30,948 nt of DNA from a virus (IMGVR_UViG_3300009104_000078:1-30948), one strand, 5' to 3'. Counted from the stretch's first letter, positions 4,685 to 18,882 are shown. Translations and numbers: made by a program. The notes: generated by a model from the letters alone, not told the origin.

Positions 4685-4759
4685 GTAAGTGCCTGACGGT
4701 CAACGACTTAGGTGGCCGGGCGGCCCTATAGCGTAAGTCGTTGGTAATCAATGGCTTAG
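4685..4759. repeat. 75-bp bipartite palindromic element, copy 1
   Basis: Two 27-bp palindromes (half-sites close to GTAAGTCGTTGA) begin at 4685 and 4733, exactly 48 bp apart, around the GC-rich core GGCCGGGCGGCC. It is preceded on the left by a conserved block TTGGCATG...TGTACAG. Confidence 0.85.
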
Positions 4760-4765
4760 AACACC

Positions 4766-4881
4766 CTTAAATAAAGCTTAGCATAGAAACGCTTTTTTAG
4801 GAATTCGTTAAATAAAGCTTAGCATAGGAAGCACTTTTTAGGAATTTGACTTTAAAAGCTTAGCATAGAAACGCTGTTTTT
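4766..4881. repeat. Three 41-bp-spaced direct repeats (iteron-like)
   Basis: The 13-mer AAGCTTAGCATAG starts at 4774, 4815 and 4856, an exact 41-bp period. Much of each unit is conserved (TTAAATAAAGCTTAGCATAG ... TTTTTAGGAATT). The block lies between two palindromic elements in a gene-free stretch (4444-4944). It could be a replication-initiator or regulator binding array. Confidence 0.75.
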
Positions 4882-4957
4882 CTATCTCGTTCTATACCAA
4901 CGAGTTACAAATGTCCGTGGCCGCCCGGCGTAAGTCGTTGATAATCAACTACTTACG
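4882..4957. repeat. 75-bp bipartite palindromic element, copy 2
   Basis: The right palindrome begins at 4930 and is well preserved. The left one (from 4882) is diverged but keeps CTCGTT...AACGAG, at the same 48-bp offset, with core GGCCGCCCGG. The stop codon of the 39-aa gene (4945-5064) lies inside the right palindrome. Confidence 0.75.
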
Positions 4958-5064
4958 AAGCGAATCCAGTCCATTAGTACGATGCTTACAATGTATAAGC
5001 TCACCGAATAGGCGAGAACCTTAACAGGCATTGCAAGAATTTCTAAGCGTTCGATAATGTGCAT
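4945..5064 (-). CDS. 39-aa membrane peptide, end of operon
   Basis: Begins MHIIERLEILAMPVKVLAYS and carries one hydrophobic helix (about residues 14-31, VKVLAYSVSLYIVSIVLM). Last gene of the unit from 5898; its TGA falls inside palindromic element copy 2. The start follows the A-rich leader AACCAAAGAAACACA, nearly identical to the leader at 6370-6384. Function unknown; one of a series of operon-terminal membrane micro-proteins. Confidence 0.65.
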   Translation of the reverse strand: MHIIERLEILAMPVKVLAYSVSLYIVSIVLMDWIRFVSS

Positions 5065-5110
5065 TGTGTTTCTTTGGTTAGCTTGTGTTTTTGTGGTGAG
5101 AAAATGTTTT

Positions 5111-5395
5111 TTACCATGGGGCTGAGTCTTGAGCTTGCCCGACAAGCAAATCCCCTGCTTGCCCTGTTTGAGTGTCTGCACAAGTATAGACTGCGACAAT
5201 CTTGACACATTGACGCTTCCAAGTGTCGTTGCCATCAAGCCCACGATACCAACGCTTGACCGCATCGACTGGGGTCTTACCATACGCTTGCACCCTGAAG
5301 GCGTGGCTACTGGTGCGGTTCTGCATGTATAGCATGTAAGCGTTTCCGCTAGTGTACTGCTCCCATGTGCTGAGCCTCTTGTTCTTCTTACTCAT
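5111..5395 (-). CDS. Small hypothetical protein
   Basis: 94 aa, begins MSKKNKRLSTWEQYTSGNAY. A central segment HAFRVQAYGKTPVDAVKRWYRGLDG resembles small phage proteins with a strand-helix layout, but no family is named. The ATG overlaps the stop of the 35-aa basic peptide gene (ATGAGTAA). Confidence 0.72.
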   Translation of the reverse strand: MSKKNKRLSTWEQYTSGNAYMLYMQNRTSSHAFRVQAYGKTPVDAVKRWYRGLDGNDTWKRQCVKIVAVYTCADTQTGQAGDLLVGQAQDSAPW

Positions 5396-5495
5396 GGCGT
5401 TGCTTGTGCTTACTCTTGCGATTGTACTTGGTCTTGACCTTGTGAGGCTGTGACTTCATCAAGGTAAAAGGGATTCTGACTTTTGGCTGTCTCAT
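5388..5495 (-). CDS. 35-aa basic peptide, paralogue of 16267-16380
   Basis: Begins MRQPKVRIPFTLMKSQPHKV and ends KSKHKQRHE; about a third of residues are basic. It aligns with the 37-aa product of 16267-16380 through VRxP...TKSxPxKxK and a terminal KxKHKxx. A short, highly basic peptide may bind nucleic acid or RNA polymerase (inference). It overlaps both neighbours: ATGA with the upstream gene and ATGAGTAA with the downstream one. Confidence 0.68.
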   Translation of the reverse strand: MRQPKVRIPFTLMKSQPHKVKTKYNRKSKHKQRHE

Positions 5496-5641
5496 GCCTT
5501 CACCAATCGAAAGCGACGATTGCCTGTCGAGTTCGCCAAGCGAACCCGAATAAGCTTGTCAGCCTTTGCCTGTGGCATTGGCAGCGTTTCAGTTTGCCAA
5601 ACTGCGTTGGCGTGAGATGCGATTGATTGTAGTATGTACAT
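5492..5641 (-). CDS. Small hypothetical protein
   Basis: 49 aa, starting MYILQSIASHANAVWQTETL and ending NRRFRLVKA. I chose the MYIL start because it lies downstream of the 5667 stop with an AT-rich leader; a longer in-frame start would overlap that gene. Its short strand opening and length recall the MQFII-type proteins, but homology is unproven. Confidence 0.6.
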   Translation of the reverse strand: MYILQSIASHANAVWQTETLPMPQAKADKLIRVRLANSTGNRRFRLVKA

Positions 5642-5666
5642 AATTCTAATTTTTAATGGGTTGCGG

Positions 5667-5891
5667 TTAACTGGTGAACATGTCACGCATGGCAGGACTT
5701 ACAGCGTCCATGTCAACGAGGTTTTCGTCTGAGTCGAAATCGACTTCCTCGGACGGAGTCCATCCGTTGACTTCGTCCTCGATGTCCTCGGTGGAAGCGT
5801 GGACAACGCCCTCTAGTTCGATGTCGCCCTTTTCAGCTAGGGCAACGGCATGAGCCTTGCGGATGAGTTCAATTCTATCTTTGATTGTCAT
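5667..5891 (-). CDS. Small acidic protein, paralogue of 8695-8928
   Basis: 74 aa, helical N terminus DRIELIRKAHAVALAEKGD then an acidic tail EEVDFDSDENLVDMDAVSPA ending MRDMFTS. The 77-aa protein at 8695-8928 has the same plan (IREAHARVLAEK, EEVDFDQDE-like, MDTISPQMRGIF). The acidic C terminus could mimic DNA or bind a basic partner (inference). First gene of its unit, predicted leaderless from the promoter at 5898. Confidence 0.8.
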   Translation of the reverse strand: MTIKDRIELIRKAHAVALAEKGDIELEGVVHASTEDIEDEVNGWTPSEEVDFDSDENLVDMDAVSPAMRDMFTS

Positions 5892-5897
5892 AACTAC

Positions 5898-5925
5898 ATA
5901 ATGACAGAAATCTGATAAAAGACGA
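5898..5925 (-). promoter_or_regulatory. Promoter of 5891 gene (leaderless)
   Basis: Minus strand: weak -35 TCGTCT (5920-5925), 16-bp spacer ending TCTGT, -10 CATTAT (5898-5903), then 6 bp to the ATG. Confidence 0.6.
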
Positions 5926-6103
5926 GCTTTTTCTTTCTAACTAAGTTTTTTGTTCATAAGTAGCTGTGTATCAGTAAGATAAAAATGCACTTTTTTTCAT
6001 CTTTTTTCCACGAGTTGCGGAGAGTTTTTGAAGTTCGACTTTTTTTGGTGCATAAAGTGTTGAACAACAAAGGGTTAGAAAGTTTTTTTTTGTTTCAGTT
6101 TCT

Positions 6104-6145
6104 ATAAGTAACTAGTAGTCAATGACTTAGGGAACCGGCCCTCTG
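6104..6145. repeat. Half palindromic element with GC core
   Basis: Left palindrome (ATAAGTAACTAG...GTCAATGACTTAG) plus GGAACCGGCCCTCTGGG; the expected right palindrome 48 bp on is decayed. Confidence 0.5.
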
Positions 6146-6178
6146 GGTAGTGTGGTAGAGTATAAGTGGTTACATTCT

Positions 6179-6210
6179 CACCATGTGGTGCGTTTGTCAC
6201 CATGTGGTGC
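6179..6210. promoter_or_regulatory. Twin CACCATGTGGTGC operator-like repeats
   Basis: Two identical 13-mers with 5-bp inverted arms (CACCA-TG-TGGTG) at 6179 and 6198, 19 bp apart. A third copy (CACCAAGTGGTGC) is at 8218-8230 in the same position relative to an element. Likely protein-binding sites. Confidence 0.5.
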
Positions 6211-6230
6211 ACTGCGGTGCAGGGTGTTGC

Positions 6231-6306
6231 GTAAGTGCCTGATAGTCAACGACTTAGGCCGGCGGGCCGCCCTGATTCGTAAGTCGTTGATAATCAACGA
6301 GTTGCG
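6231..6306. repeat. 75-bp bipartite palindromic element, copy 3
   Basis: Palindromes begin at 6231 and 6279 (48 bp apart) around GGCCGGCGGGCCGCC. It abuts the stop of the 20-aa membrane peptide at 6307. Confidence 0.88.
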
Positions 6307-6369
6307 TTACTTAGTTTTCGCAAGCACGACAAGCACGCCCACGCACATCAAAATAATTAAAGTGTCCAT
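6307..6369 (-). CDS. 20-aa single-helix membrane peptide
   Basis: MDTLIILMCVGVLVVLAKTK: one hydrophobic helix (residues 4-17) with a basic end. Last gene of its unit; the stop directly abuts element copy 3. The ATG follows the A-rich leader AACCAAAAAAACACA. Too short to assign, but eight similar peptides occupy equivalent positions in this window. Confidence 0.5.
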   Translation of the reverse strand: MDTLIILMCVGVLVVLAKTK

Positions 6370-6398
6370 TGTGTTTTTTTGGTTAAAAAATGTTTTTT

Positions 6399-6575
6399 TC
6401 AATCTTCCTGCAACGAGGAAACAATTCCGCAAATAGCGTTAGCGATAAAAATCAAAGGCACGAAGCCGAACGGGAAAAGAATCCCAATTTCCCAAAACCA
6501 TTTAAGGGAGAAAATCGCAATAGCAAACTGAGCGAAAATGAAAGGAACAAATAAGAATAGGTTTGTGATTGTCAT
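6399..6575 (-). CDS. 58-aa membrane protein with two helices
   Basis: Begins MTITNLFLFVPFIFAQFAIA; hydrophobic segments at about residues 5-22 and 28-51 (ILFPFGFVPLIFIANAICGIV) separated by a short KWFWE loop. Located 21 nt after the MQFII paralogue. Holin-like topology is possible but unsupported by motif. Confidence 0.65.
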   Translation of the reverse strand: MTITNLFLFVPFIFAQFAIAIFSLKWFWEIGILFPFGFVPLIFIANAICGIVSSLQED

Positions 6576-6596
6576 AAGTGGTTGATAGGTAAGGGT

Positions 6597-6794
6597 TTAC
6601 GCCCAGATGATATGGGCATCGTGACCATAAGCGGCATGGTCGGGATTGGTTGCCATTGCTGACTTGTAGCCACGAATGACTTTTCGCAAGTAGCGTTTGG
6701 AAACGCTTACATGGGTGGCAATCAGGAAGCCACGATTGAATACTTGAAGGCGAAAATTGCCTTGGCGAGTTTGGTTTGCTATAATGAACTGCAT
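6597..6794 (-). CDS. Small MQFII-family protein, copy 2
   Basis: 65 aa, paralogue of 3795-3986: shared MQFIIA, LQVFNRGF, basic helix RYLRKVIRGYKSAM, and the C-terminal DHAAYGHDAHIIWA. The two copies are in different transcription units, consistent with cassette duplication. The leader is A-rich without a Shine-Dalgarno site (ACAAAAAACAT before ATG). Function unknown. Confidence 0.78.
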   Translation of the reverse strand: MQFIIANQTRQGNFRLQVFNRGFLIATHVSVSKRYLRKVIRGYKSAMATNPDHAAYGHDAHIIWA

Positions 6795-6860
6795 ATGTTT
6801 TTTGTGTTTTTTGTTTTAGGTTTGAGAATCGTTGGGGGAGCCACTGCCCATTTACGGCTC

Positions 6861-6887
6861 TTAATTCAGTGCTTTTCTCATTCTCAT
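6861..6887 (-). CDS. 8-codon leaderless leader peptide (MRMRKALN)
   Basis: The -10 CATTAT at 6894-6899 ends 6 bp before this ATG, exactly as for genuine genes, but the frame stops after MRMRKALN. It is either a leader peptide for the unit containing 6597-6794 or the remnant of a lost first gene. A further 11-codon frame (MGSGSPNDSQT) follows before the next gene. Confidence 0.35.
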   Translation of the reverse strand: MRMRKALN

Positions 6888-6893
6888 ATATAC

Positions 6894-6921
6894 ATAATGA
6901 CAGAAATCTGAGAAATTGCAA
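6894..6921 (-). promoter_or_regulatory. Promoter of the 6887 unit
   Basis: Minus strand: -35 TTGCAA (6916-6921), 16-bp spacer ending TCTGT, -10 CATTAT (6894-6899). Confidence 0.6.
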
Positions 6922-7191
6922 ACTAATTCGTTTTCAGCTAACTTTTTGGTGCGTAACTTACTGATAATCAAAGAAATAAAAAAGAAGAAAAAAACATCTG
7001 TCTGCGGAGCAAAATCTGCGTTTTTGTGAAGTTCGACTTTTTTTGGTTCGTAAGTGGTTGAGTAACAACCGGTTGTGAAGTTTTTTTTCTTGCAATTTTT
7101 ATAAGTGCCTGATGGTCAACAACTTAGGCCGCCGGGCGGCCCCGCCCCGTAAGTCGTTGATAGTCAACGAGTTACGAAACGCTTTAGGTAC
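6922..7191. other. Gene-free regulatory stretch
   Basis: Holds AAGTTCGACTTTTTTT (about 7028-7043), a degenerate palindrome (about 7050-7078) and the complete element at 7101-7176. No supported gene. Confidence 0.5.
7101..7176. repeat. 75-bp bipartite palindromic element, copy 4
   Basis: Palindromes begin at 7101 and 7149 (48 bp apart) around GGCCGCCGGGCGGCC. A terminator lies immediately to the right (7192-7227). Confidence 0.88.
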
Positions 7192-7227
7192 AAAAAAACC
7201 CCGCCACGAATTCCGGGTGTGACGAGG
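7192..7227 (-). terminator. Rho-independent terminator
   Basis: Minus-strand stem CCTCGTCAC/GTGGCGGGG (9 bp with G-T wobbles, 7199-7207 with 7219-7227) followed by seven T. It ends the unit whose last gene is 7269-7322. Confidence 0.75.
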
Positions 7228-7268
7228 TTTTCTGGTGAGAAAATGTTTTTTTGGTTAAAAAATGTTTT

Positions 7269-7322
7269 TTAGATTAGAATGCCACCAATCACGGCAAAAA
7301 GAATAATTGTAATTGGGCACAT
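7269..7322 (-). CDS. 17-aa membrane peptide
   Basis: MCPITIILFAVIGGILI, almost entirely one hydrophobic helix. It starts three bases after the stop of 7325-7612, with AGGA from that stop region acting as a possible Shine-Dalgarno site. It is the last frame before the terminator. Shares position and character with the other operon-terminal membrane peptides. Confidence 0.42.
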   Translation of the reverse strand: MCPITIILFAVIGGILI

Positions 7323-7324
7323 TT

Positions 7325-7612
7325 TTATCCTATGTTGCAAAGAGCTTTTTCTCGCTCGGCTTCCACTTCAGCGTTGCCATTGGCAACCAAAAGAGCAACG
7401 GCTTCCTCGGCGAGCTTGGCAAACCTTCGCAAATCGCTTGCATAATGGGTAGCGTAAACCTTAGCACAATCTCCGTCTTGCTCGACTTTTTCGTCAGCGA
7501 ATTTCGCTAGAGAGTTGCATTCCAAGGCAATATCTCTCAGCTTGTCACCGACAGCAAAGTTGTCCCCAAGTTGGGCGTTGAATAAATCTCCTAATGTAGT
7601 TTTGTTTTCCAT
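7325..7612 (-). CDS. Small helical protein, paralogue of 9201-9464
   Basis: 95 aa, opening MENKTTLGDLFNAQLGDNFA. It aligns along its length with the 87-aa protein at 9201-9464: LGDNFxVGDKLxDI, a long helix with DxDGxxAKVYAxxxxxxL, and AVALLxxN. Both are first genes behind near-identical promoters (AAATTTGAGA). The fold looks all-helical; no known family recognised. Confidence 0.8.
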   Translation of the reverse strand: MENKTTLGDLFNAQLGDNFAVGDKLRDIALECNSLAKFADEKVEQDGDCAKVYATHYASDLRRFAKLAEEAVALLVANGNAEVEAEREKALCNIG

Positions 7613-7618
7613 TTTATA

Positions 7619-7647
7619 ATTGTCTCAAATTTTCGGTTAAAAGTCAA
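7619..7647 (-). promoter_or_regulatory. Promoter of 7612 gene (leaderless)
   Basis: Minus strand: -35 TTGACT (7642-7647), 17-bp spacer, -10 GACAAT (7619-7624), 6 bp to ATG. Confidence 0.7.
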
Positions 7648-7862
7648 GCATCTTCTCGCTCAATTCCCCAGTTGCGTTCCCTTGAACGCCAAGCGTGGTC
7701 TTGGTTATCCATTGAGGCAGAGCGAACTGCCCGACTCCATTCCCATTTTATCCGTTCAATATCGGACTGGGCGTTTACGATAATACCTTGAGCAACTCCG
7801 CAACCGCCTTCAGCCGCTTCGGTGTTGTCATCGATAATTTTTTCTAGTTGTGTGATTGTCAT
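7644..7862 (-). CDS. Small hypothetical protein
   Basis: 72 aa, begins MTITQLEKIIDDNTEAAEGG; predicted helical with a C-terminal Trp/Arg-rich stretch (WRSRERNWGIERED). A single-gene unit with its own leaderless promoter; its last codons overlap the -35 box of the next unit. Function unknown. Confidence 0.72.
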   Translation of the reverse strand: MTITQLEKIIDDNTEAAEGGCGVAQGIIVNAQSDIERIKWEWSRAVRSASMDNQDHAWRSRERNWGIEREDA

Positions 7863-7868
7863 AATAAT

Positions 7869-7897
7869 AATATACTCCAGTTATGCGTGAAAGTCAA
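7869..7897 (-). promoter_or_regulatory. Promoter of 7862 gene (leaderless)
   Basis: Minus strand: -35 TTGACT (7892-7897), 17-bp spacer, -10 TATATT (7869-7874), 6 bp to ATG. Confidence 0.7.
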
Positions 7898-7903
7898 ACT
7901 CTT

Positions 7904-8077
7904 TTATGCAAAGAAAGGGTGAATCTTTACTTGCCAAGGCATGAAGGCAACACGCTTTTGCGAGCGATACAAACGGCAAAGGATTTGCTTGCCTAGTCGG
8001 TCAGTCCGATAATCTGCATCGACAACTTGGAAAATACGACCTTGGCGGTCTACTACTACATCATTCTTTTTAATCAT
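7904..8077 (-). CDS. 57-aa KOW/SH3-like protein
   Basis: Begins MIKKNDVVVDRQGRIFQVVD and reads as a small beta barrel (VVVDRQGRIFQVVDADYR, ILCRLYRSQKRVAFM). One of the few genes here with a visible Shine-Dalgarno site (AAGGA, 7 nt from ATG) and a normal leader of about 26 nt from the promoter at 8110. It resembles 9509-9712 in size and opening (KxNDxV). Confidence 0.68.
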   Translation of the reverse strand: MIKKNDVVVDRQGRIFQVVDADYRTDRLGKQILCRLYRSQKRVAFMPWQVKIHPFFA

Positions 8078-8109
8078 TTTTTTATCCTTTTTAATCTTAC
8101 TATACTAAT

Positions 8110-8138
8110 ACAATAAACCCAAAACGCCAAAAAGTCAA
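8110..8138 (-). promoter_or_regulatory. Promoter of 8077 gene (with leader)
   Basis: Minus strand: -35 TTGACT (8133-8138), 17-bp spacer, -10 TATTGT (8110-8115). The start should be near 8103, leaving a leader with an AAGGA site. Confidence 0.65.
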
Positions 8139-8217
8139 GCCTCCAGAGCAAGTTTTTTCGTGAAAGTTTTTAATGGGTTTCAGTAGTTGAACTGATAGGT
8201 GCAAATGGTTGCAATCT

Positions 8218-8230
8218 CACCAAGTGGTGC
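8218..8230. promoter_or_regulatory. CACCAAGTGGTGC operator-like inverted repeat
   Basis: Third copy of the motif seen twice at 6179-6210, with matching flank (ATGGTTGCAATCT versus GTGGTTACATTCT). It lies between the promoter at 8110 and the element at 8288. Confidence 0.45.
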
Positions 8231-8287
8231 AAAAATGTTTTTTATGTTCAATCGGGGCAACCGGTGCATTGTGGTTTTTGTTGTTGC

Positions 8288-8363
8288 GTAAGTGCCTGAC
8301 AGTCAACGACTTAGGCCGGCGGGCCGCCCCGGCCCGCAAGTCGTTGATAGTCAACGAGTTACG
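8288..8363. repeat. 75-bp bipartite palindromic element, copy 5
   Basis: Palindromes begin at 8288 and 8336 (48 bp apart) around GGCCGGCGGGCCGCC. A terminator lies to the right at 8403. Confidence 0.88.
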
Positions 8364-8402
8364 AATCTGGTGAGAAAATGTTTTTCTGGTGAGTTTTGGT
8401 GC

Positions 8403-8432
8403 AAAAAAATACACCGCACTCAGGCGGTGTAT
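8403..8432 (-). terminator. Rho-independent terminator
   Basis: Perfect 9-bp stem ATACACCGC/GCGGTGTAT with a 6-nt loop, followed on the minus strand by a run of T. Confidence 0.85.
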
Positions 8433-8453
8433 TTGAGGGGTATTTGATTCTAT

Positions 8454-8630
8454 TTAATTTATCTTGACCATTTCACCCAAATGGTTGACATGGGTTTGTT
8501 TGTGTTCTTTTGCTATTTGTGTAGCAAGTCGAACCGCTTTAGCTCTACCCTCCACCTCATCAATAAGTTTGCCAAAAGCAAAAACTTGAATCCAAGAAGG
8601 GAAATTAGGGTTTTTCTTTGTTGATATCAT
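8454..8630 (-). CDS. 58-aa hypothetical protein
   Basis: Begins MISTKKNPNFPSWIQVFAFG; mainly helical with basic residues (EGRAKAVRLATQIAKEHKQ). Starts 2 nt after the stop of the membrane peptide at 8633; last gene before the terminator. No family recognised. Confidence 0.65.
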   Translation of the reverse strand: MISTKKNPNFPSWIQVFAFGKLIDEVEGRAKAVRLATQIAKEHKQTHVNHLGEMVKIN

Positions 8631-8632
8631 TT

Positions 8633-8698
8633 TTAGTCAAATGTGTAAGATAGAAGTCCTGCGAGTAAAATAAGAAGAATTACAATTCCAATACTCAT
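8633..8698 (-). CDS. 21-aa membrane peptide
   Basis: MSIGIVILLILLAGLLSYTFD: a single strongly hydrophobic helix. Its ATG overlaps the TGA of 8695-8928 (ATGA), which supports real translation. Near the end of its unit, like its counterparts elsewhere. Confidence 0.55.
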   Translation of the reverse strand: MSIGIVILLILLAGLLSYTFD

Positions 8699-8928
8699 GA
8701 AAATATTCCTCTCATTTGTGGTGAGATTGTGTCCATGTTGACCTCGCTTTCGTCTTGGTCGAAATCAACCTCTTGCTCGTGGTCGAGAGCGTCAAGATGT
8801 TGGGCTTCGTCCTCCACATCTTCTTGCGTTGCAGGTAGAAGCTCCTCAATAGACGCACCTTCTTCGGCTCGTTTCTCGGCAAGGACTCTTGCGTGGGCTT
8901 CACGAATCATTTGTATTCTGTTAATCAT
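8695..8928 (-). CDS. Small acidic protein, paralogue of 5667-5891
   Basis: 77 aa: helix MINRIQMIREAHARVLAEKR, then an acidic region (EQEVDFDQDESEVNMD) and SPQMRGIF end. Same architecture as 5667-5891. First gene of its unit, with the -10 ending 7 bp before ATG. The acidic tail suggests a DNA mimic or protein-interaction role, unproven. Confidence 0.8.
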   Translation of the reverse strand: MINRIQMIREAHARVLAEKRAEEGASIEELLPATQEDVEDEAQHLDALDHEQEVDFDQDESEVNMDTISPQMRGIFS

Positions 8929-8935
8929 GGGTGGA

Positions 8936-8964
8936 ATTTTAGTCTAAAATTGCGATTCTGTCAA
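8936..8964 (-). promoter_or_regulatory. Promoter of 8928 gene (leaderless)
   Basis: Minus strand: -35 TTGACA (8959-8964), 17-bp spacer, -10 TAAAAT (8936-8941), 7 bp to ATG. Confidence 0.72.
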
Positions 8965-8967
8965 GGG

Positions 8968-9204: not shown

Positions 9205-9464
9205 GACTTGACCTCATTTTCTTTCTTTTGGTTTTCAATTAACAAAGCGACCGCATCGTTGGCTAGGTTGGCAATTTCCCCTAGCCACCCAACAATGCTT
9301 TCAGCGTAAACTTTAGCAAACTCGCCATCTTCATCGACTTGTTTTTGTGCCATGCTAGCAATCGAATTTGCATTCCTGCGAATATCAAGGAGCTTGTCGC
9401 CCACTCGAAAGTTGTCGCCCAGTCGGGCATTTATAATTTCTACAATATCAATTTTTTCTTTCAT
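9201..9464 (-). CDS. Small helical protein, paralogue of 7325-7612
   Basis: 87 aa, opening MKEKIDIVEIINARLGDNFR. Shares LGDNFxVGDKLxDI, DEDGEFAKVYAES and AVALLIENQ with 7325-7612, clearly the same family. First gene behind promoter 9471, whose last 25 bp are almost identical to the promoter at 10376. Confidence 0.8.
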   Translation of the reverse strand: MKEKIDIVEIINARLGDNFRVGDKLLDIRRNANSIASMAQKQVDEDGEFAKVYAESIVGWLGEIANLANDAVALLIENQKKENEVKS

Positions 9465-9470
9465 AATATA

Positions 9471-9499
9471 ATTCTCTCAAATTTTGCGTTAAATGTCAA
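9471..9499 (-). promoter_or_regulatory. Promoter of 9464 gene (leaderless)
   Basis: Minus strand: -35 TTGACA (9494-9499), 17-bp spacer ending AAATTTGA, -10 GAGAAT (9471-9476), 6 bp to ATG. Confidence 0.72.
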
Positions 9500-9508
9500 C
9501 ACTTAATT

Positions 9509-9712: not shown

Positions 9713-9718
9713 ATATAT

Positions 9719-9747
9719 ACAATAAGCTATAAACCCCTTTTTGTCAA
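9719..9747 (-). promoter_or_regulatory. Promoter of 9712 gene (leaderless)
   Basis: Minus strand: -35 TTGACA (9742-9747), 17-bp spacer, -10 TATTGT (9719-9724), 6 bp to ATG. Confidence 0.7.
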
Positions 9748-9857
9748 ATTAAATCGTCAGGCTGTAGCCCGCTTATAGCCTCATTCTTAAAAATAAATCA
9801 AAAAAAAATCAATAAAATTAACTTTTCAGATTGGCACGAAACTTGTACAGCAGTTTC

Positions 9858-9932
9858 GTAAGTACCTGATAGTCAACGACTTAGGCCGCCGGGCCGCCGC
9901 CCGCCGTAAGTCGTTGATATACAACAACTTAG
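9858..9932. repeat. 75-bp bipartite palindromic element, copy 6
   Basis: Palindromes begin at 9858 and 9906 (48 bp apart), core GGCCGCCGGGCCGCC. The left flank (9828-9857) holds TTGGCACG...TTGTACAG and an 8-bp inverted repeat ACGAAACT/AGTTTCGT. The stop of the 22-aa peptide lies inside the right palindrome. Confidence 0.88.
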
Positions 9933-10141: not shown

Positions 10142-10369
10142 TTAAAGGGTGGTGGGCATATCGGGATGCGTGGGTTGATACACATCATAACACTCCATAA
10201 TTTCTCCAACCGCATTTTGTTGAACATAAACGAGCTGTAACTGCTCGGTGGGAGTGCCTTCGAGAAGCAACGCTTCAACACGCTCAATAGCTTCCTCTAA
10301 GCCCTCGCGAGATTTTTCAAAAGACTCGAATGGCCAGCAGTCGAGTAGGATTTCGTAGTTTTCTTTCAT
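10142..10369 (-). CDS. Small hypothetical protein
   Basis: 75 aa, begins MKENYEILLDCWPFESFEKS; helical middle (REGLEEAIERVEALL) then a strand QLVYVQQNAVGEIMECYDVY. First gene behind promoter 10376 (leaderless). No family recognised. Confidence 0.75.
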   Translation of the reverse strand: MKENYEILLDCWPFESFEKSREGLEEAIERVEALLLEGTPTEQLQLVYVQQNAVGEIMECYDVYQPTHPDMPTTL

Positions 10370-10375
10370 GATATA

Positions 10376-10404
10376 ATTCTCTCAAATTTTAGGTTGAATG
10401 TCAA
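10376..10404 (-). promoter_or_regulatory. Promoter of 10369 gene (leaderless)
   Basis: Minus strand: -35 TTGACA (10399-10404), 17-bp spacer ending AAATTTGA, -10 GAGAAT (10376-10381), 6 bp to ATG. Confidence 0.72.
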
Positions 10405-10767: not shown

Positions 10768-10842
10768 GTAAGTTGCTCATAGTCAACGACTTAGGGCGCC
10801 GGGCGGCGGCCTTGCGTAAGTCGTTGATACTCAGTGGTTTAA
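10768..10842. repeat. 75-bp bipartite palindromic element, copy 7
   Basis: Palindromes begin at 10768 and 10816 (48 bp apart), core GGGCGCCGGGCGGC; the far right half-site is diverged. The left flank again contains TTGGCATG...CTGTACAG. It contains the stop of the 19-aa peptide. Confidence 0.82.
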
Positions 10843-12031: not shown

Positions 12032-12107
12032 GTAAGTCTTTGATAGTCAACGAGTTGCGCCGCCGGGCCACGCCGATTCGCAAGTCGTTGATGCTCAACA
12101 GCTTGTA
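12032..12107. repeat. 75-bp bipartite palindromic element, copy 8
   Basis: Palindromes begin at 12032 and 12080 (48 bp apart), core GCGCCGCCGGGCCACGCC. Confidence 0.85.
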
Positions 12108-12966: not shown

Positions 12967-13366
12967 GCCCTAAATCCAACCTTTTTTCGCTCTTTTTAAG
13001 GTAAAGTTCGTCAATAACATTACTGACCTTAATTAAGCTTCCTTGAAAGTTTGCCATAAGCTCGTTCAACTCATCCTCGGTTTGCCAACCTAGAACATCA
13101 TCAAAAGCACCAAGAGGAAGCATGGTATTCTTGCGAAACATGGCAACCTCATAAGTACCTGCCGAAGCATCGCCATAAAGTCCATATCCTTCCTTCTTCA
13201 TCGAGACTACGGAAATCTCTAGGTCATTGCCCAAGTCAAGCTTTGCTTGAATGCCACCATTAACATTGGCGTGGTCGGTGAATACTAAATCACGAAAGGT
13301 TAGTGTGCGAGAGAATACGCTCTTAATCTTTGCGATAAACCAGTTGATGAATTTTTTGATTGTCAT
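12959..13366 (-). CDS. Hypothetical protein
   Basis: 135 aa, begins MTIKKFINWFIAKIKSVFSR, an amphipathic basic helix that could associate with membrane, followed by a beta-rich body (LEISVVSMKKEGYGLYGDAS, TYEVAMFRKN) and an acidic helical end. I chose the MTIKK start because the -10 box at 13373 ends 6 bp upstream; a longer frame exists but crosses the promoter. No family recognised. Confidence 0.78.
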   Translation of the reverse strand: MTIKKFINWFIAKIKSVFSRTLTFRDLVFTDHANVNGGIQAKLDLGNDLEISVVSMKKEGYGLYGDASAGTYEVAMFRKNTMLPLGAFDDVLGWQTEDELNELMANFQGSLIKVSNVIDELYLKKSEKRLDLGLD

Positions 13367-13372
13367 ACCTAT

Positions 13373-13400
13373 ATAATGACAGATTGAGCGGAAAACACAA
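13373..13400 (-). promoter_or_regulatory. Promoter of 13366 gene (leaderless)
   Basis: Minus strand: -35 TTGTGT (13395-13400), 16-bp spacer ending TCTGT, -10 CATTAT (13373-13378), 6 bp to ATG; 30 bp from element copy 9. Confidence 0.68.
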
Positions 13401-13430: not shown

Positions 13431-13506
13431 GTAAACCCTTGACCGGCAACAACTTACAAAACGCGGTGGCCGCCCGACGTAAGTCGTTGACTACCAACGA
13501 CTTACG
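13431..13506. repeat. 75-bp bipartite palindromic element, copy 9
   Basis: Palindromes begin at 13431 and 13479 (48 bp apart), core GCGGTGGCCGCCCG. Includes the stop codon of the 24-aa peptide at 13502. Confidence 0.82.
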
Positions 13507-13780: not shown

Positions 13781-13784
13781 TTGA

Positions 13785-14060: not shown

Positions 14061-14779
14061 GAGTTTATTCCTTCTTGGACGAATCCAGTTTCATCTTGCT
14101 TGGCAAGACCTTTTTCAATTAGCCCGACGACATAGCCGCCTTGCTTGTCTAGAAAACGCAAATCGTTTTCGTCACCATTGATGACTTCAAAACCTTTCCA
14201 AGTCTTTGGCAACTGGTCACGGAAGACCACCGCAACATTGCCGCCCATTTCTAAAACCATTTCGCACAACTTGTCGTTATGTTCGGAGCGTGAGAATGTC
14301 AAATGGTAATTGCTAGGTTCATGCCCATTGAGAAACTTTGCCATGCGACCAAAGCTCTTGGTGTAGTCATAAAATTGGGTGTCAGGAAACTTTTGCATGA
14401 GAGTTTGCCCATCGGCATTTTCTATCTCTTCAAACATTAAGTCGCTTGTGAGGTTTGGACGGAAGACCGCCTTCATGCCTTTTTTAGCCGCTGACTTAAT
14501 AGTGGAAGCGATTTCCTTTTCGAGCTTGGCAAGAAACGCAAGCGTGTCTTCAAAGAAAAGTTTTGTTTTCTTAATGCGTGAGTCTTGCGTGTTTTGCATA
14601 CGCCCACGCCCTGCCGTGTTGAGGCAAGCCATCGTGCAACCTTTTGATCTCCAACGGCAAACTTCATGCCCCGACAAATCAGCGGGAGCAAAATGAATGC
14701 CTTTTGTGAGGTAACCTAATTCCTCGCCTTTTACGATTTTGGCATTTCCTGCCGTGAGAAGAGTTTGTTTGATTGTCAT
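14057..14779 (-). CDS. gp88-like phage protein
   Basis: 240 aa, begins MTIKQTLLTAGNAKIVKGEE. A cysteine cluster near the N terminus (C41-x6-C48-x3-C52, in CRWRSKGCTMACLNTAGRG) followed by an Arg/Lys helix and a long alpha/beta body matches the phage gp88 family (Pfam Gene product 88) as I know it; the function is not established, though the cysteines suggest a metal site. The -10 box ends 6 bp before this ATG, which decides against a longer in-frame start. First gene of a four-gene unit. Confidence 0.75.
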   Translation of the reverse strand: MTIKQTLLTAGNAKIVKGEELGYLTKGIHFAPADLSGHEVCRWRSKGCTMACLNTAGRGRMQNTQDSRIKKTKLFFEDTLAFLAKLEKEIASTIKSAAKKGMKAVFRPNLTSDLMFEEIENADGQTLMQKFPDTQFYDYTKSFGRMAKFLNGHEPSNYHLTFSRSEHNDKLCEMVLEMGGNVAVVFRDQLPKTWKGFEVINGDENDLRFLDKQGGYVVGLIEKGLAKQDETGFVQEGINS

Positions 14780-14785
14780 GCTTAT

Positions 14786-14813
14786 ATAATGACAGATTAG
14801 GGCGAAAACACAA
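14786..14813 (-). promoter_or_regulatory. Promoter of 14779 gene (leaderless)
   Basis: Minus strand: -35 TTGTGT (14808-14813), 16-bp spacer ending TCTGT, -10 CATTAT (14786-14791), 6 bp to ATG; 30 bp from element copy 10. Confidence 0.68.
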
Positions 14814-14843
14814 GCAAAAAATGCATCAATTAGCATTTTAGTT

Positions 14844-14918
14844 GTAAGTCCTTGATGGTCAACGACTTGCGCGGCGGGGCGGCCGGCCTGCCTAAGTCGT
14901 TGATAGCCAACAACTTAT
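14844..14918. repeat. 75-bp bipartite palindromic element, copy 10
   Basis: Palindromes begin at 14844 and 14892 (48 bp apart), core GCGCGGCGGGGCGGCCGGCC. Confidence 0.86.
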
Positions 14919-14983
14919 GTAACGCCCGAGACCAAAAAAACATAGTTGCATTGAAAAAACATTTTATCACCATGTTTAACCAC

Positions 14984-15012
14984 AAAAAAACCCCCACCCT
15001 ATTTGGTGGAGG
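14984..15012 (-). terminator. Rho-independent terminator
   Basis: Minus-strand stem CCTCCACC/GGTGGGGG with a 6-nt loop followed by seven T; ends the DUF932 unit. Confidence 0.82.
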
Positions 15013-15048
15013 AAAGGTTCTTGTACCTTTTTTGTTTTTATTTAAGGG

Positions 15049-15972
15049 TTAACGCTCAGCTTGGTCCCAGTCGGCATAGAGGGAAGCAGGGACTTCGCCA
15101 TCTATTTGACTGACTATTTCGAGTTCGTTGGCAGGTTCAACTGCAACCGCCTCGACTAGCTCAGCTTCTTCCGTTGCATCGAAAGCGGAGAGGTCGAAAC
15201 CGACTTCCGCATCGAGAACGGAGTGCAAAGCGTCAGAGCGTTGAGGCAATGCAACCAAGTTCCCCTTGTACACCTCGGTGAAGGCATTGTAAAGGGAGTT
15301 CATGTTTCTGTCACGAAACGCATCGTGGTCGCTTGACTCCCATTGGTTGACGACATCGACAACCTTGGTCTTGCTGATTGCCCCTGCCTTGTAAGAGCGA
15401 ATCACAAGGTCATTGACTTGAGCGTTTGTCAAATCGAAATCCTTGTAAGACTCGATGCGATTATCTTGTCCATGCCAAAAGGTGAACAACTTGCCCAAGG
15501 TGCGAGCGATGACAGAATCAAGCTCGGCTAAAATGTGGCGAGTGTGCCTTCTTGCAAGTTTCACATTGTTAGTGAAAATGAGGTTGTCGCAAACAAACGG
15601 AGCGTCACCTGCACAGAGTCCTGCGGGGAAGCATTTGTCGTGAGCGTTACGCAATCCAATGATTGTTCCTCGCTCGGTGTTTTCCCTTTGAGGGTGCGAC
15701 ACTTCAAACAAGCCAAAATAGCGTTGTCCACCTCTTGCGAGGTTGTGGCACTCATCGACAATATCGAAACCGCCTTGCTCAAGATGGTTACGAGTCTTGT
15801 CAATCAAGAGGTCGTGACTGATGGGTTGATAAGAAACCGAAAGACTGCCGTCCTTGTTTCTTTCCTTGCGGTACTCCACTTGTGGAGTGTTGACAGCCTT
15901 AACTTCGTCAAGGTCAACGATGGTGGATTGATTTCCGCAGATGCGGAGGTTTACTTTCTTTTGATTTTCCAT
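15049..15972 (-). CDS. DUF932 family phage/plasmid-like protein
   Basis: 307 aa. The core (LIDKTRNHLEQGGFDIVDEC, YFGLFEV, IIGLRNAHDKCFPAGLCAGD, FVCDNLIFTNNVKLARRHT) is typical of DUF932 proteins found in phages and plasmids, where a nucleic-acid-related role is suspected but unproven. The last 60 residues are acidic and family-atypical. It is transcribed from one of the best promoters in the window (TTGACA, 17 bp, GATAAT) whose -10 ends 6 bp before the ATG, so the message should be leaderless. Confidence 0.88.
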   Translation of the reverse strand: MENQKKVNLRICGNQSTIVDLDEVKAVNTPQVEYRKERNKDGSLSVSYQPISHDLLIDKTRNHLEQGGFDIVDECHNLARGGQRYFGLFEVSHPQRENTERGTIIGLRNAHDKCFPAGLCAGDAPFVCDNLIFTNNVKLARRHTRHILAELDSVIARTLGKLFTFWHGQDNRIESYKDFDLTNAQVNDLVIRSYKAGAISKTKVVDVVNQWESSDHDAFRDRNMNSLYNAFTEVYKGNLVALPQRSDALHSVLDAEVGFDLSAFDATEEAELVEAVAVEPANELEIVSQIDGEVPASLYADWDQAER

Positions 15973-15978
15973 GATATG

Positions 15979-16007
15979 ATTATCTCAATTTTTGTGTGTT
16001 TTGTCAA
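15979..16007 (-). promoter_or_regulatory. Promoter of DUF932 gene (leaderless)
   Basis: Minus strand: -35 TTGACA (16002-16007), 17-bp spacer, -10 GATAAT (15979-15984), 6 bp to ATG. Confidence 0.8.
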
Positions 16008-16010
16008 GGA

Positions 16011-16265
16011 TTAATTGCGATTAAAATCGCCTTCGTTTATAAAGTTGCCTTGGAAGCCTTCTTCGAGCTTTTCAAGTTGAGTTGCCTTTTCTGCCATAAT
16101 CTTAAAGGTCAATCCAATGAGGGCGAGAACTGCGTCTTGCTCTTGGGTTAGCTTGCCTTGCATTGGCTCGATAAGTATATCGTGAATTTCGCCCATTGCC
16201 ATAGTCATGACTTCATTAGAAGAAGGGTTCTTGTCAGAGGAGGAGAAGTTTTCGTCAATATTCAT
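16011..16265 (-). CDS. Small helical hypothetical protein
   Basis: 84 aa, begins MNIDENFSSSDKNPSSNEVM; a Ser/Asn-rich start, then helices (AVLALIGLTFKIMAEKATQL). Starts 1 nt after the stop of the 37-aa basic peptide gene. Function unknown. Confidence 0.72.
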   Translation of the reverse strand: MNIDENFSSSDKNPSSNEVMTMAMGEIHDILIEPMQGKLTQEQDAVLALIGLTFKIMAEKATQLEKLEEGFQGNFINEGDFNRN

Positions 16266-16266
16266 T

Positions 16267-16380
16267 TTAGTATTGTTCCTTGTGCTTGAGTTTGCGTGGG
16301 AGAGTTTTGTTTTTCATTTTGAAGGGGCGAGACTTCGTGAAAAGAATCGGCTTTCTAACTTTTAGTTCCCTTACTTTCAT
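16267..16380 (-). CDS. 37-aa basic peptide, paralogue of 5388-5495
   Basis: Begins MKVRELKVRKPILFTKSRPF and ends RKLKHKEQY; strongly basic. Shares VRxP, the TKSxP segment and the KxKHK ending with the 35-aa peptide at 5388-5495. First gene of its unit with a leaderless promoter, which supports its reality despite its size. A nucleic-acid or polymerase-binding role is inference. Confidence 0.65.
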   Translation of the reverse strand: MKVRELKVRKPILFTKSRPFKMKNKTLPRKLKHKEQY

Positions 16381-16387
16381 AAATACA

Positions 16388-16415
16388 AGTATGACAGATT
16401 GAGTGAAAACCGCAA
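16388..16415 (-). promoter_or_regulatory. Promoter of 16380 gene (leaderless)
   Basis: Minus strand: -35 TTGCGG (16410-16415), 16-bp spacer ending TCTGT, -10 CATACT (16388-16393), 7 bp to ATG. Confidence 0.6.
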
Positions 16416-16487
16416 GCAAAAAAAAATCTTTTTTTGCAGTTTAGTTGTCAGCTTATGATACACATAAGCGGAGCTAATGTCGGTTTC

Positions 16488-16562
16488 ATAACCCTTTGAT
16501 AACCAACGACTTAGGGCGCCGGGCCACGAAGTTTTGCAAGTCGTTGATACTCAACACCTTAG
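16488..16562. repeat. 75-bp bipartite palindromic element, copy 11
   Basis: Palindromes begin at 16488 and 16536 (48 bp apart), core GGGCGCCGGGCCACG. Confidence 0.82.
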
Positions 16563-16578
16563 GTAAGCGAACAATAAA

Positions 16579-16612
16579 TAAAAAACCCCACCCGCCCTAC
16601 AGACGGATGGGG
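16579..16612 (-). terminator. Rho-independent terminator
   Basis: Minus-strand stem CCCCATCCG/CGGGTGGGG followed by six T; ends the ten-gene unit that begins at 18647. Confidence 0.82.
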
Positions 16613-16637
16613 CTCCAGGAACCACCTAACCAAGGTT

Positions 16638-16811
16638 TTATTTAATCCTTATTTGACTAGTTTTCTTTTCTAACTGATAAAGTTTTCGGAGTAAATTATC
16701 GTGCTCCTTTTTTCTACCCCACCAACCTTTAAATTTATGCTCAGACTCTTCCTCGTAAGCAAGCAAGTGAGCTAACTCTCTAATTTTTCCCTTGAGGTTA
16801 TCGTACGCCAT
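16638..16811 (-). CDS. 57-aa basic helical protein
   Basis: Begins MAYDNLKGKIRELAHLLAYE; long charged helices (HKFKGWWGRKKEHDNLLRKL), coiled-coil-like. I chose ATG 16809-16811, one base after the preceding stop. A longer in-frame start would overlap the conserved-looking gene 16813-17049 by over 100 bp. Confidence 0.62.
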   Translation of the reverse strand: MAYDNLKGKIRELAHLLAYEEESEHKFKGWWGRKKEHDNLLRKLYQLEKKTSQIRIK

Positions 16812-16812
16812 G

Positions 16813-17049
16813 TTACGCCCTATTGAGTGAGATAATTCTGTCATAACGAAAGGAGCGAAAATCCCCACGATTATGACAGAAAGCACGAAACCCTGCGGTA
16901 CGAATACCTTCCTTTTGATTACCAAACTCGCGAGAGTGCTCGGGCTTACTTATGGTGTACATTTCTGTGCGACCATCTTGCGTTTGATATACGACGCTGT
17001 AAAGGCGACTGTCGAGTAGGTTCTTAATCTTCTTTAGTATCTTCTTCAT
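16813..17049 (-). CDS. Conserved-type small phage protein (WYL-like C-terminal pattern)
   Basis: 78 aa, begins MKKILKKIKNLLDSRLYSVV. A strand pair YSVVYQTQDGRTEMYTISKP, then FGNQKEGIRTAGFRAFC and the ending RGDFRSFRYDRIISL. The RSFRYDRI ending recalls the domain that closes WYL-type proteins and is seen in small phage proteins; function unknown. Its start overlaps the end of 17024-17254 by 26 nt. Confidence 0.7.
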   Translation of the reverse strand: MKKILKKIKNLLDSRLYSVVYQTQDGRTEMYTISKPEHSREFGNQKEGIRTAGFRAFCHNRGDFRSFRYDRIISLNRA

Positions 17050-17254
17050 TGTAATATACTTCCAATGCCTGTTTTAGTGTTTCGTTAGCTTCTTCGAGAG
17101 TTTCAAAAGAAAGGCAGATAAGCTCTTTCTCAAGGTTATAAGGATTTCCGTATTCCTTTTCCTCAAAGTAGAGGTCATATGTCTCCGTGTCCGAATCGTA
17201 TTCGGGACGATTAAGTGGCGGTAACTGACAATTTTCTTCTATGTAATCAAGCAT
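17024..17254 (-). CDS. Small acidic hypothetical protein
   Basis: 76 aa, begins MLDYIEENCQLPPLNRPEYD; very acidic with a C-terminal helix (ETLEEANETLKQALEVYYNE). Overlaps the stop of 17247-17402 and the start of 16813-17049. Function unknown. Confidence 0.72.
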   Translation of the reverse strand: MLDYIEENCQLPPLNRPEYDSDTETYDLYFEEKEYGNPYNLEKELICLSFETLEEANETLKQALEVYYNEEDTKED

Positions 17255-17402
17255 TGCGTTTTGCCTCCTGTGCTTTTCGTACTTTTTGCGTGACCATCAC
17301 ACCTTTGTTCGTTAATGATTCCACCAAGGGCTTGTTGCCAGTATGGGAATACTTCTTCCCAAACTTGGAGGCGTTACGATGTTCTATGTTTCGTTTTCCC
17401 AT
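17247..17402 (-). CDS. 51-aa basic protein
   Basis: Begins MGKRNIEHRNASKFGKKYSH and ends KVRKAQEAKRNA; strongly basic, possibly nucleic-acid binding. It has its own promoter (17412-17440), 9 bp upstream, so a 2-3 nt leader is predicted. Overlaps the next gene by 8 nt. Confidence 0.68.
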   Translation of the reverse strand: MGKRNIEHRNASKFGKKYSHTGNKPLVESLTNKGVMVTQKVRKAQEAKRNA

Positions 17403-17411
17403 TGTGATATA

Positions 17412-17440
17412 ATTATCTCAAATTTAAGCGTCCAAGTCAA
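17412..17440 (-). promoter_or_regulatory. Promoter of 17402 gene
   Basis: Minus strand: -35 TTGACT (17435-17440), 17-bp spacer ending AAATTTGA, -10 GATAAT (17412-17417), 9 bp to ATG. Confidence 0.75.
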
Positions 17441-17642
17441 CCATAAAAAATGTGGCTAACTCTTTTATCATAGCATCTTGACCAAAGAAGTTGTAAGCAT
17501 AGCTGACCACCTCTTGCCTGTCCCAGGATGGCATCTCTTTGACTTCATCGTAGATTTCAAAGATGCTAGCATTCCAGTTCCAGCTCTCAACCTTTTGTTT
17601 AACTTCGTCTGGTGTCATTCCGATTCTTGTGTTTATCAACAT
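17424..17642 (-). CDS. Small hypothetical protein
   Basis: 72 aa, begins MLINTRIGMTPDEVKQKVES; helical, Trp-containing (WNWNASIFEIYDEVKEMPSW). Its stop lies within the promoter of the next gene. No family recognised. Confidence 0.74.
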   Translation of the reverse strand: MLINTRIGMTPDEVKQKVESWNWNASIFEIYDEVKEMPSWDRQEVVSYAYNFFGQDAMIKELATFFMVDLDA

Positions 17643-17643
17643 T

Positions 17644-17886
17644 TTAGTTCCCTTCTTTTTGTTGTGCGATTATATCACAGAGTTTCCCTAATGTAAAGGT
17701 TATATCTGCAAGGTTGGTGTTTATGCAATCAAGTAGGCGAGTGTTGTCGCTTTCTTGGAGTTCTCTCTTTACTCCATAAAGTTCATCGCTCAACCCATCG
17801 ATGGCTAGGCGAATCAAGCGTACTTCTTCAACCCCTCGATTTGCTTGGGCGGTCTTGGCGGCAATTTTCTCAGATAGTGTTGTCAT
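17644..17886 (-). CDS. Small helical protein
   Basis: 80 aa, begins MTTLSEKIAAKTAQANRGVE; continuous predicted helix/coiled coil. Overlaps the upstream gene by 4 nt (ATGA). Function unknown. Confidence 0.74.
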   Translation of the reverse strand: MTTLSEKIAAKTAQANRGVEEVRLIRLAIDGLSDELYGVKRELQESDNTRLLDCINTNLADITFTLGKLCDIIAQQKEGN

Positions 17887-18104
17887 TCTTTTTCTTTTAT
17901 AATTACTTTATCAGAAAGTTCTTCAAATTCTTTATCGTCACTCACCTTGAGCATGAGTTCTCTCAAGGACGACCACAAAGGAGCCCAAGGGTCAGAAAAG
18001 TCCAACTCTCCACCCATTTCCGAATAACGGATGTACTCTTGCACTTCTTGAATAGCACACAACACTTTGTCGTGGTAATTGTTCTTTGGGTCAGGACTTG
18101 GCAT
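17883..18104 (-). CDS. Small acidic helical protein
   Basis: 73 aa, begins MPSPDPKNNYHDKVLCAIQE; helical, acidic C terminus. Overlaps the 38-aa gene upstream by 14 nt. Function unknown. Confidence 0.72.
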   Translation of the reverse strand: MPSPDPKNNYHDKVLCAIQEVQEYIRYSEMGGELDFSDPWAPLWSSLRELMLKVSDDKEFEELSDKVIIKEKE

Positions 18105-18207
18105 CGAGCTTAATGGTAAAGTTTTTGTCTGTAATTATAATCTCTCCACCACCACAATTCTTGAGGCGTTGTTGGAGAGCTTCGATGAGTTCAGTTACTT
18201 CTCGCAT
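18091..18207 (-). CDS. 38-aa hypothetical protein
   Basis: Begins MREVTELIEALQQRLKNCGG and ends IIITDKNFTIKLDAKS: helix then a strand pair. Overlaps both neighbours by about 13 nt, consistent with a tightly coupled operon. Confidence 0.58.
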   Translation of the reverse strand: MREVTELIEALQQRLKNCGGGEIIITDKNFTIKLDAKS

Positions 18208-18380
18208 TTCTGTTTTCTTTCTTCGTTTACTTCATCAACCCACTTGCCAAGGCTAATGAGTTCTTCCCTCATCGATTGCTTGGACTCGGCAGATGCCTTT
18301 GGATTTTCAAGTACGGCAAGCATGACTCGCATCATTCCTTCCCACTTCGGAGTTATATCTATGAATTTTTGATTTTCCAT
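18195..18380 (-). CDS. Small helical protein
   Basis: 61 aa, begins MENQKFIDITPKWEGMMRVM. Its opening MENQK is shared with the DUF932 protein. Two helices with charged ends. Leaderless promoter directly upstream. Function unknown. Confidence 0.72.
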   Translation of the reverse strand: MENQKFIDITPKWEGMMRVMLAVLENPKASAESKQSMREELISLGKWVDEVNEERKQKCEK

Positions 18381-18386
18381 GCCTTA

Positions 18387-18414
18387 ATTATGACAGATTG
18401 TGCGTTTATGTCAA
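18387..18414 (-). promoter_or_regulatory. Promoter of 18380 gene (leaderless)
   Basis: Minus strand: -35 TTGACA (18409-18414), 16-bp spacer ending TCTGT, -10 CATAAT (18387-18392), 6 bp to ATG. Confidence 0.78.
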
Positions 18415-18422
18415 GGGTTTTC

Positions 18423-18647
18423 TTATATAATATTCTTGTGAGAATCGAGAAAGTGGTCACCTTGCCACTCCATGCCGAAAGTTTCCTCTAAAAAATCTTC
18501 AATTACGATGCAGTCATCGTCAATCTTCTGAGACTTGGCGAAATCTCCCATACCACCACGGAGCGATAACTCAATGCTTTGGTCACGCAATTCTTCGTGA
18601 TGTTTTACGAGGATGTCGATTATATCTTTTCTTTCCCATGTTCTCAT
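18423..18647 (-). CDS. Small acidic hypothetical protein
   Basis: 74 aa, begins MRTWERKDIIDILVKHHEEL; helical, with an acidic middle (KIDDDCIVIEDFLEETFG). First gene of a long unit; leaderless promoter. Function unknown. Confidence 0.74.
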   Translation of the reverse strand: MRTWERKDIIDILVKHHEELRDQSIELSLRGGMGDFAKSQKIDDDCIVIEDFLEETFGMEWQGDHFLDSHKNII

Positions 18648-18654
18648 AAATATA

Positions 18655-18682
18655 AGTCTGACAGATTCGGGGCAAAAGTCAA
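18655..18682 (-). promoter_or_regulatory. Promoter of 18647 gene (leaderless)
   Basis: Minus strand: -35 TTGACT (18677-18682), 16-bp spacer ending TCTGT, -10 CAGACT (18655-18660), 7 bp to ATG. Confidence 0.62.
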
Positions 18683-18807
18683 GAGTTTTTTTGTGAACTA
18701 AAGGTAATAAATTCTCTCACCTACATCTCCCCTTCTCTCTTCTCTATATATATAAAGGCGGCATGTTCTTGTTTTTCCGGATTTAATTTCATAAATTGCA
18801 AACTTTT

Positions 18808-18882
18808 TTAAATCGCTGACTGTCAACGAGTTATGAAACGGGGTGGCAAAATTCCGTAAGTCGTTGATATACAACAAGTTAT
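18808..18882. repeat. 75-bp bipartite palindromic element, copy 12
   Basis: Palindromes begin at 18808 and 18856 (48 bp apart). The core (AAACGGGGTGGCAAAATTCC) has lost most of its GC palindrome, so this is the most diverged complete copy and the rightmost one. Confidence 0.75.

Follow-up and report, generated by a model that had tools for sequence, protein, structure and literature searches.

A twin-palindrome element repeated at transcription-unit borders in one clade of uncultured large phages

The window analyzed here (IMGVR_UViG_3300009104_000078:1-30948, the whole stretch of 30,948 nucleotides) is a fragment of the genome of an uncultured large phage. Almost all of its genes are on the minus strand, and they code for relatives of RIIA, RIIB, PhoH, GP88, DUF932, and a trypsin-like protein, together with a weak match to a sigma factor; the trypsin-like serine protease gene (1459-2406, minus strand) adjoins PhoH in phage DNA. 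The window also carries a repeated 75-bp element with two 27-bp imperfect palindromes around a core, and all twelve copies listed in an initial annotation of the sequence are present at the positions claimed (Table 1). Direct recheck shows that the two palindromes start exactly 48 bp apart in 12 of 12 copies. The core is both GC-rich and variable, as had been described, and no copies are present beyond position 18,882, in agreement with the reported absence of the element right of 19 kb. The window copies score 66 to 103 with a position matrix and the best shuffled sequence scores -11, values that show coherence and are not an independent test, as the matrix was trained on the same twelve copies. 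The inner arms of the palindromes (TCAACGACTTA and TAAGTCGTTGA) are well preserved and the outer arms are degenerate; the copy at 4882 is partly decayed, its left half being poor. Lone palindromes are also present (at 4605, 6105, 6575, 6954, and 7051). Between 5.9 and 16.6 kb, each intergenic gap of at least 245 bp has one element, and shorter gaps have none.

The element is widespread among viral contigs. The pattern of a single palindrome matches at least 120 stretches of such contigs, and there are at least 63 loci with three or more twin elements among the matches listed. These correspond to at least about 60 virus loci with arrays beyond the window, again among the matches listed, since the 63 include the window itself, some loci share a contig and overlap there, and another (L106, offset 37) is unlike a spaced array, with its palindromes in a tandem run. 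One locus (L007) was found through relatives of the GP88 gene and has the same element with offsets of 46 to 47 bp. Large contigs (100 to 190 kb, with all copies listed) have at least 10 copies, all in one region of roughly 10 to 15 kb, and this confinement argues against the packaging role that had been suggested as one possibility. A repeat of host chromosomes was considered and rejected, as a stricter twin pattern has 52 matches in 84,980 species genomes, almost all of them singletons. Arrays are present in several contigs filed under bacterial metagenome-assembled genomes (L174/L185, PBOZ01000054.1; L160, NZIN01000056.1; and L183, RFXU01000148.1), with offsets of 55 or 43 bp, and these are probably mis-binned viral sequences or prophages.

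The array-bearing contigs have genes in common. PhoH, a zinc-ribbon protein, and a sigma-like protein are shared by the window and five other array-bearing contigs (105 to 148 kb), and 42 protein families are present in at least four of these six. The two annotated array-bearing contigs both code for a T4-type DNA polymerase, a DnaB-like helicase, and ribonucleotide reductase, and the terminase in one of them is divergent. A T4-like Gp23 capsid was considered and set aside, being present in 1 of 20 records. Isolate phages give only distant matches, no sequence similar to the element DNA is present in the isolate phage collection, and there is no element array in the first 50 kb of Caulobacter phage Cr30. 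A literature search on intergenic phage palindromes turned up no description of this element.

Location at the boundaries of transcription units, proposed originally for the window, is borne out across the 63 loci, with 0 of 389 copies inside genes. Using codon-scored gene calls, elements are present in approximately 36 of 52 convergent gaps (69%), 256 of 850 tandem gaps, and 14 of 57 divergent gaps; many of the loci are mutually related, and these gap counts, like those for promoters and terminators, do not represent independent events. Matches to a promoter-like pattern (TTGAC, 15 to 19 bp, TANNNT) in the element flanks point outward in 118 instances and inward in 22, and a strict outward match is present within 160 bp for 114 of 372 elements (about 31%). 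In 46 of the 118 outward matches the first ATG is exactly 6 nucleotides past the -10 box, which suggests that the messages are leaderless. Intrinsic terminators in the flanks point toward the element in 64 cases and away from it in 19 (background, 1.5% for each flank and strand), and they end about 25 bp short of the element. The most frequent complete arrangement runs from gene end through intrinsic terminator, element, and sigma70-like promoter to the ATG. In the window, seven promoter-like sequences (the two in Table 1 and five others on the minus strand, at 9462-9499, 10367-10404, 7610-7647, 15970-16007, and 18378-18414) fall into two sequence classes with the ATG about 35 nucleotides from the -35 box, and the abutment of these sequences on the ATG similarly suggests leaderless messages. 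Shine-Dalgarno-like motifs are uncommon in these phages (10 to 18%).

The initial annotation offered both a paired operator and an RNA processing or termination structure as possible roles, and noted that half-site conservation without covariation would favor protein binding. The covariation check came out on the protein side. Among 347 distinct elements, shuffled within each contig to control for relatedness, there is no excess of matching arm changes in the local hairpins (z of 0.8 and -0.9), and matching in the long hairpin is below expectation (outer-outer z of -4.1 and inner-inner z of -6.7). Mismatches on the transcribed strand are G-U in 349 cases and A-C in 389, such that wobble pairs are not commoner. 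With neither arm covariation nor an excess of G-U, the conserved feature is not RNA structure. Folding of single copies can give long hairpins (about -21 to -41 kcal/mol in the examples), and several elements immediately follow stop codons and separate convergent genes, both of which would fit RNA hairpins that form from the transcribed element and act in termination, processing, or stability. We regard this as highly improbable, however, because in addition to the pairing results there is no Rfam match for the element, a terminator-like sequence (GC hairpin plus U-tract) is within the element in only 19 of 374 copies, separate intrinsic terminators often adjoin it, and self-pairing of the core is barely above that of shuffled sequences and is not consistent. 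The half-sites are instead kept as sequence. Positions 2, 3, and 9 are near-invariant among 1,328 half-sites, and a mask blind to the half-site middle still yields Y-V-T-A-A-G-T-C-G-T-T-G-A. In sequence the half-sites look like a dimer-binding site, and we infer that the element is bound by a protein.

A constant spacing of 48 bp is confined to this genome, as relatives have spacings of 40 to 58 bp that scarcely vary inside any one contig. By locus, the modal offset is 40 to 43, 45 to 50, 53, 55, or 58 bp, and in most contigs the copies depart from it by no more than one base. Because these offsets include half-integral helical turns, a shared phase is not required, and 48 bp is a lineage trait and no universal geometry. 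The earlier suggestion that fixed spacing reflects selection for a fixed geometry thus has to be abandoned: spacing varies among related genomes without being confined to whole helical turns, and several shared borders carry each genome's own core. Median core similarity is 0.78 within contigs; between contigs it is 0.56, and composition-matched shuffles give 0.58. Where genomes with differing core types share a border, the core is nearer to the other cores of its own genome in 8 of 8 pairs and the palindromes are nearer to the ortholog in 6 of 8, although these counts are small and the finding is restricted to genomes with unlike core types; in the pooled set of all orthologous pairs, closely related genomes simply share cores by descent. 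For example, L126 and L135 have flanks that are 92% identical and yet their cores differ at two borders, and window element 8 and its counterpart in L076 (9095) have flanks at 78% and offsets of 48 and 41 bp. Palindromes that follow the locus and a core that follows the genome imply concerted replacement of cores, and spacing within a genome would be constant because each core seems to be copied whole. In L050, L134, and L057, the cores have GACCCC-NNNN-GGGGTC-like stems with a TTCG/GAAG loop in either orientation, as if the tip had been inverted.

An identity tag specific to each genome is an unlikely role for the GC core; under this reading the core would be swapped exactly between the palindromes at all copies and would form the lineage's own early-operon border code, and the swap could occur by gene conversion, homing-like drive, or site-specific cassette exchange. 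It is quite unlikely that the element is a small mobile or self-copying palindromic element (cf. REPINs and miniature inverted-repeat transposable elements) that has spread and been homogenized within each phage genome and is tolerated only between operons. Dispersed similar copies that are strictly intergenic and have near-identical cores per genome are as such an element would leave them, but in 6 of the 8 pairs above the ortholog has the nearer palindromes, an indication that whole elements have not recently jumped at those borders, and no target duplications or transposase associated with repetitive extragenic palindromic (REP) sequences were noticed, with no search aimed at either.

The stoperators of Cluster A mycobacteriophages are short, asymmetric sites for a single repressor, mostly in one orientation, with a motif that is specific to each genome (PMC6550527). 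The element described here shares with them its many dispersed copies per phage, located at unit borders within one region, and a sequence common to one genome and different between genomes. The main rival to our preferred explanation, which we consider possible but distinctly doubtful, is that a phage-encoded regulator co-evolves with the lineage core, binds every copy with help from the palindromes, and silences or blocks elongation in the small units. Such regulation fits the genome-specific core well, but it does not fit the symmetry or the mixed orientation, since the elements are symmetric pairs of palindromes whose arms are conserved, and their lineage-specific core is present in both orientations. 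Furthermore, no immunity repressor was recognized among the annotated proteins, no candidate regulator or integrase was found among the annotated part of the shared proteins, and a change of regulator alone leaves the length changes in all cores unexplained.

The proposal that the element is a recombination site did not hold up, as homology breaks off no more often at elements than elsewhere in non-coding DNA. Homology ends inside elements in 13.1% of cases, compared with 7.1% for random positions and 14.9% for random non-coding positions, and the corresponding values are 18.2% versus a non-coding expectation of 14.9% for close pairs (at least 88% identity), and 9.8% versus 15.5% for pairs at 92% identity. 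There is no sign that the elements are preferred exchange points beyond lying between genes. These frequencies, which are similar for close pairs, make it very unlikely that the element serves mainly as a module whose shared homology lets recombination shuffle cassettes of early genes between phages, with a terminator and promoter attached, even though the order of terminator, element, and promoter is as would be expected of one, and one-sided homology stops at some elements (L114 7186 versus L115 1891 and L040 539). Such a module would be akin to the promoter early stem-loops (PeSLs) of T4-type phages (Arbiol 2010, Comeau 2014) which, as described in PMC4503421 and PMC3950731, are intergenic composites of a terminator and an early promoter that are dense in small-gene regions, and a similar motif with a TATA-like box and an inverted repeat is described for HGTV-1. 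The element has a comparable place, in a composite intergenic setting in small-gene regions where some copies have a terminator or promoter beside them, but its conserved part is a palindrome pair around a core, separate from the terminator and promoter; it is also present between convergent genes, and has neither arm covariation nor breakpoint enrichment. Because it lacks two PeSL-defining features as tested here, a conserved stem-loop/terminator and modular shuffling, we do not class it as a PeSL.

Integron attC sites are repeated imperfect palindromes with a variable center, located between small one-gene cassettes, and the element resembles them in being a repeated imperfect palindromic site with a variable center. 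It differs in that no GTTRRRY/RYYYAAC boxes were noted here, no integrase gene is present among the annotated proteins, and the arms lack the covariation of a folded hairpin, as the negative inner-inner and outer-outer z values above show.

The explanation we favor, albeit tentatively, is that the elements are paired symmetric sites for an architectural or roadblock protein and serve as operon-border insulators. Each element would consist of two symmetric sites of about 29 to 31 bp for a dimeric DNA-binding protein, with a half-site of roughly YV-TAAgtsgTTGA, flanking a GC-rich core specific to the phage lineage. The copies sit where small transcription units adjoin, within one region, in this clade of uncultured large phages. 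The bound pair would most likely act as an orientation-independent boundary, with DNA bending or a block to RNA polymerase limiting read-through from the preceding unit, and it would also shape or regulate the promoter of the following unit. Constant spacing within a genome would then be a by-product of core copying between sites, with no geometric requirement. In the few contigs in which it could be tested there is no link between core orientation and promoter direction; this counts in favor of the insulator explanation, and the idea of a core oriented by promoter direction was set aside.

The likeliest binder of these sites would be a host DNABII architectural protein (IHF/HU). The IHF consensus is WATCAANNNNTTR (PMC5963220), and it occupies one side of a 35-bp site (PMC8421141). 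Read outward from its center, the palindrome gives TWA-TCAA-NNNN-TTR on both strands and partly resembles WATCAANNNNTTR duplicated about a shared central W in both orientations, which we take as a lead and not as an identification. The full WATCAANNNNTTR matches 381 of 694 palindromes on at least one strand, and 51 on both, counts that are partly selected by the detection mask. The central triplet, which was not used in detection, has a central W in 87% of cases (61% expected) and T1 or A3 in 86% (52% expected), and half-site position 1 is T in 91% and C in 8%, fitting the R of TTR. In Escherichia coli, the RIB/RIP (BIME-1) elements have an IHF site between inverted REP units at operon 3' ends. 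These too are repeated intergenic elements with palindromes and are comparable in having a possible IHF-type site at the ends of transcription units, but the arrangement here is reversed, with IHF-like palindromes outside and a GC core inside, and it is in phages.

We note, however, that several observations weigh against this explanation. Where the IHF consensus has its four N positions, the bases here are moderately constrained (information of 0.6 to 1.2 bits), and conservation extends to two bases beyond the consensus, so the binder may be another protein. No protein is over the PF00216 (HU/IHF family) cut-off in any of 28 virus records; a phage-encoded HU/IHF protein was therefore set aside, and any binder of this family would have to come from the host. 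A strict promoter match within 160 bp is present for only about one third of the elements, and the distance from element to promoter in the window varies from 31 bp to about 480 bp. Finally, genes, promoters, and terminators were called with simple purpose-written scripts, and the gap proportions are approximate.

The window contains additional repeats close to the twin elements. A 41-bp unit (AAAGCTTAGCATAG...) is present in three head-to-tail copies between elements 1 and 2 (4773-4896), and a repeated block (at about 4500-4632, 5955-6080, and 6950-7076), just outside some twin elements, has two single palindromes about 100 bp apart flanking a GAAGTTCGACTTTTTTTG-like motif. A TGGTGAGAAAATGTTTTTT motif recurs at 5094-5120, 7233-7278, 8225-8251, and 8368-8394, and the near-palindromic CACCATGTGGTGC is present twice at 6178-6215, close to element 3.

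Table 1. Coordinates of twin-palindrome elements and promoter-like sequences in the window
Feature	Coordinates	Strand	Basis or remark
Twin-palindrome element 1	4685..4759	.	Offset 48; palindrome check and matrix
Twin-palindrome element 2, left half degenerate	4882..4956	.	Palindrome check and matrix
Twin-palindrome element 3	6231..6305	.	Palindrome check and matrix
Twin-palindrome element 4	7101..7175	.	Palindrome check and matrix
Twin-palindrome element 5	8288..8362	.	Palindrome check and matrix
Twin-palindrome element 6	9858..9932	.	Palindrome check and matrix
Twin-palindrome element 7	10768..10842	.	Palindrome check and matrix
Twin-palindrome element 8	12032..12106	.	Orthologous border in L076 (9095) has 41-bp-offset version
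Twin-palindrome element 9	13431..13505	.	31 bp upstream of minus-strand promoter-like -35
Twin-palindrome element 10	14844..14918	.	31 bp upstream of promoter-like -35 of GP88 gene
Twin-palindrome element 11	16488..16562	.	Palindrome check and matrix
Twin-palindrome element 12, last of array	18808..18882	.	Palindrome check and matrix
Promoter-like sequence ending at ATG	13364..13400	-	TTGTGT, 16 bp, CATTAT, 6 nt, ATG
Promoter-like sequence ending at ATG of GP88 gene	14777..14813	-	-35 is 31 bp from element 10

The element appears to be an undescribed and widespread punctuation mark in a clade of uncultured large phages. It shows where small takeover operons start and end, and so aids in finding and delimiting their genes. 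Should the paired sites prove to be insulators to which a host architectural protein binds, these phages would be partitioning their dense gene regions with a host nucleoid protein. The combination of a core that is uniform within each genome and palindromes that are bound to their loci makes the concerted evolution of a phage regulatory repeat directly testable.

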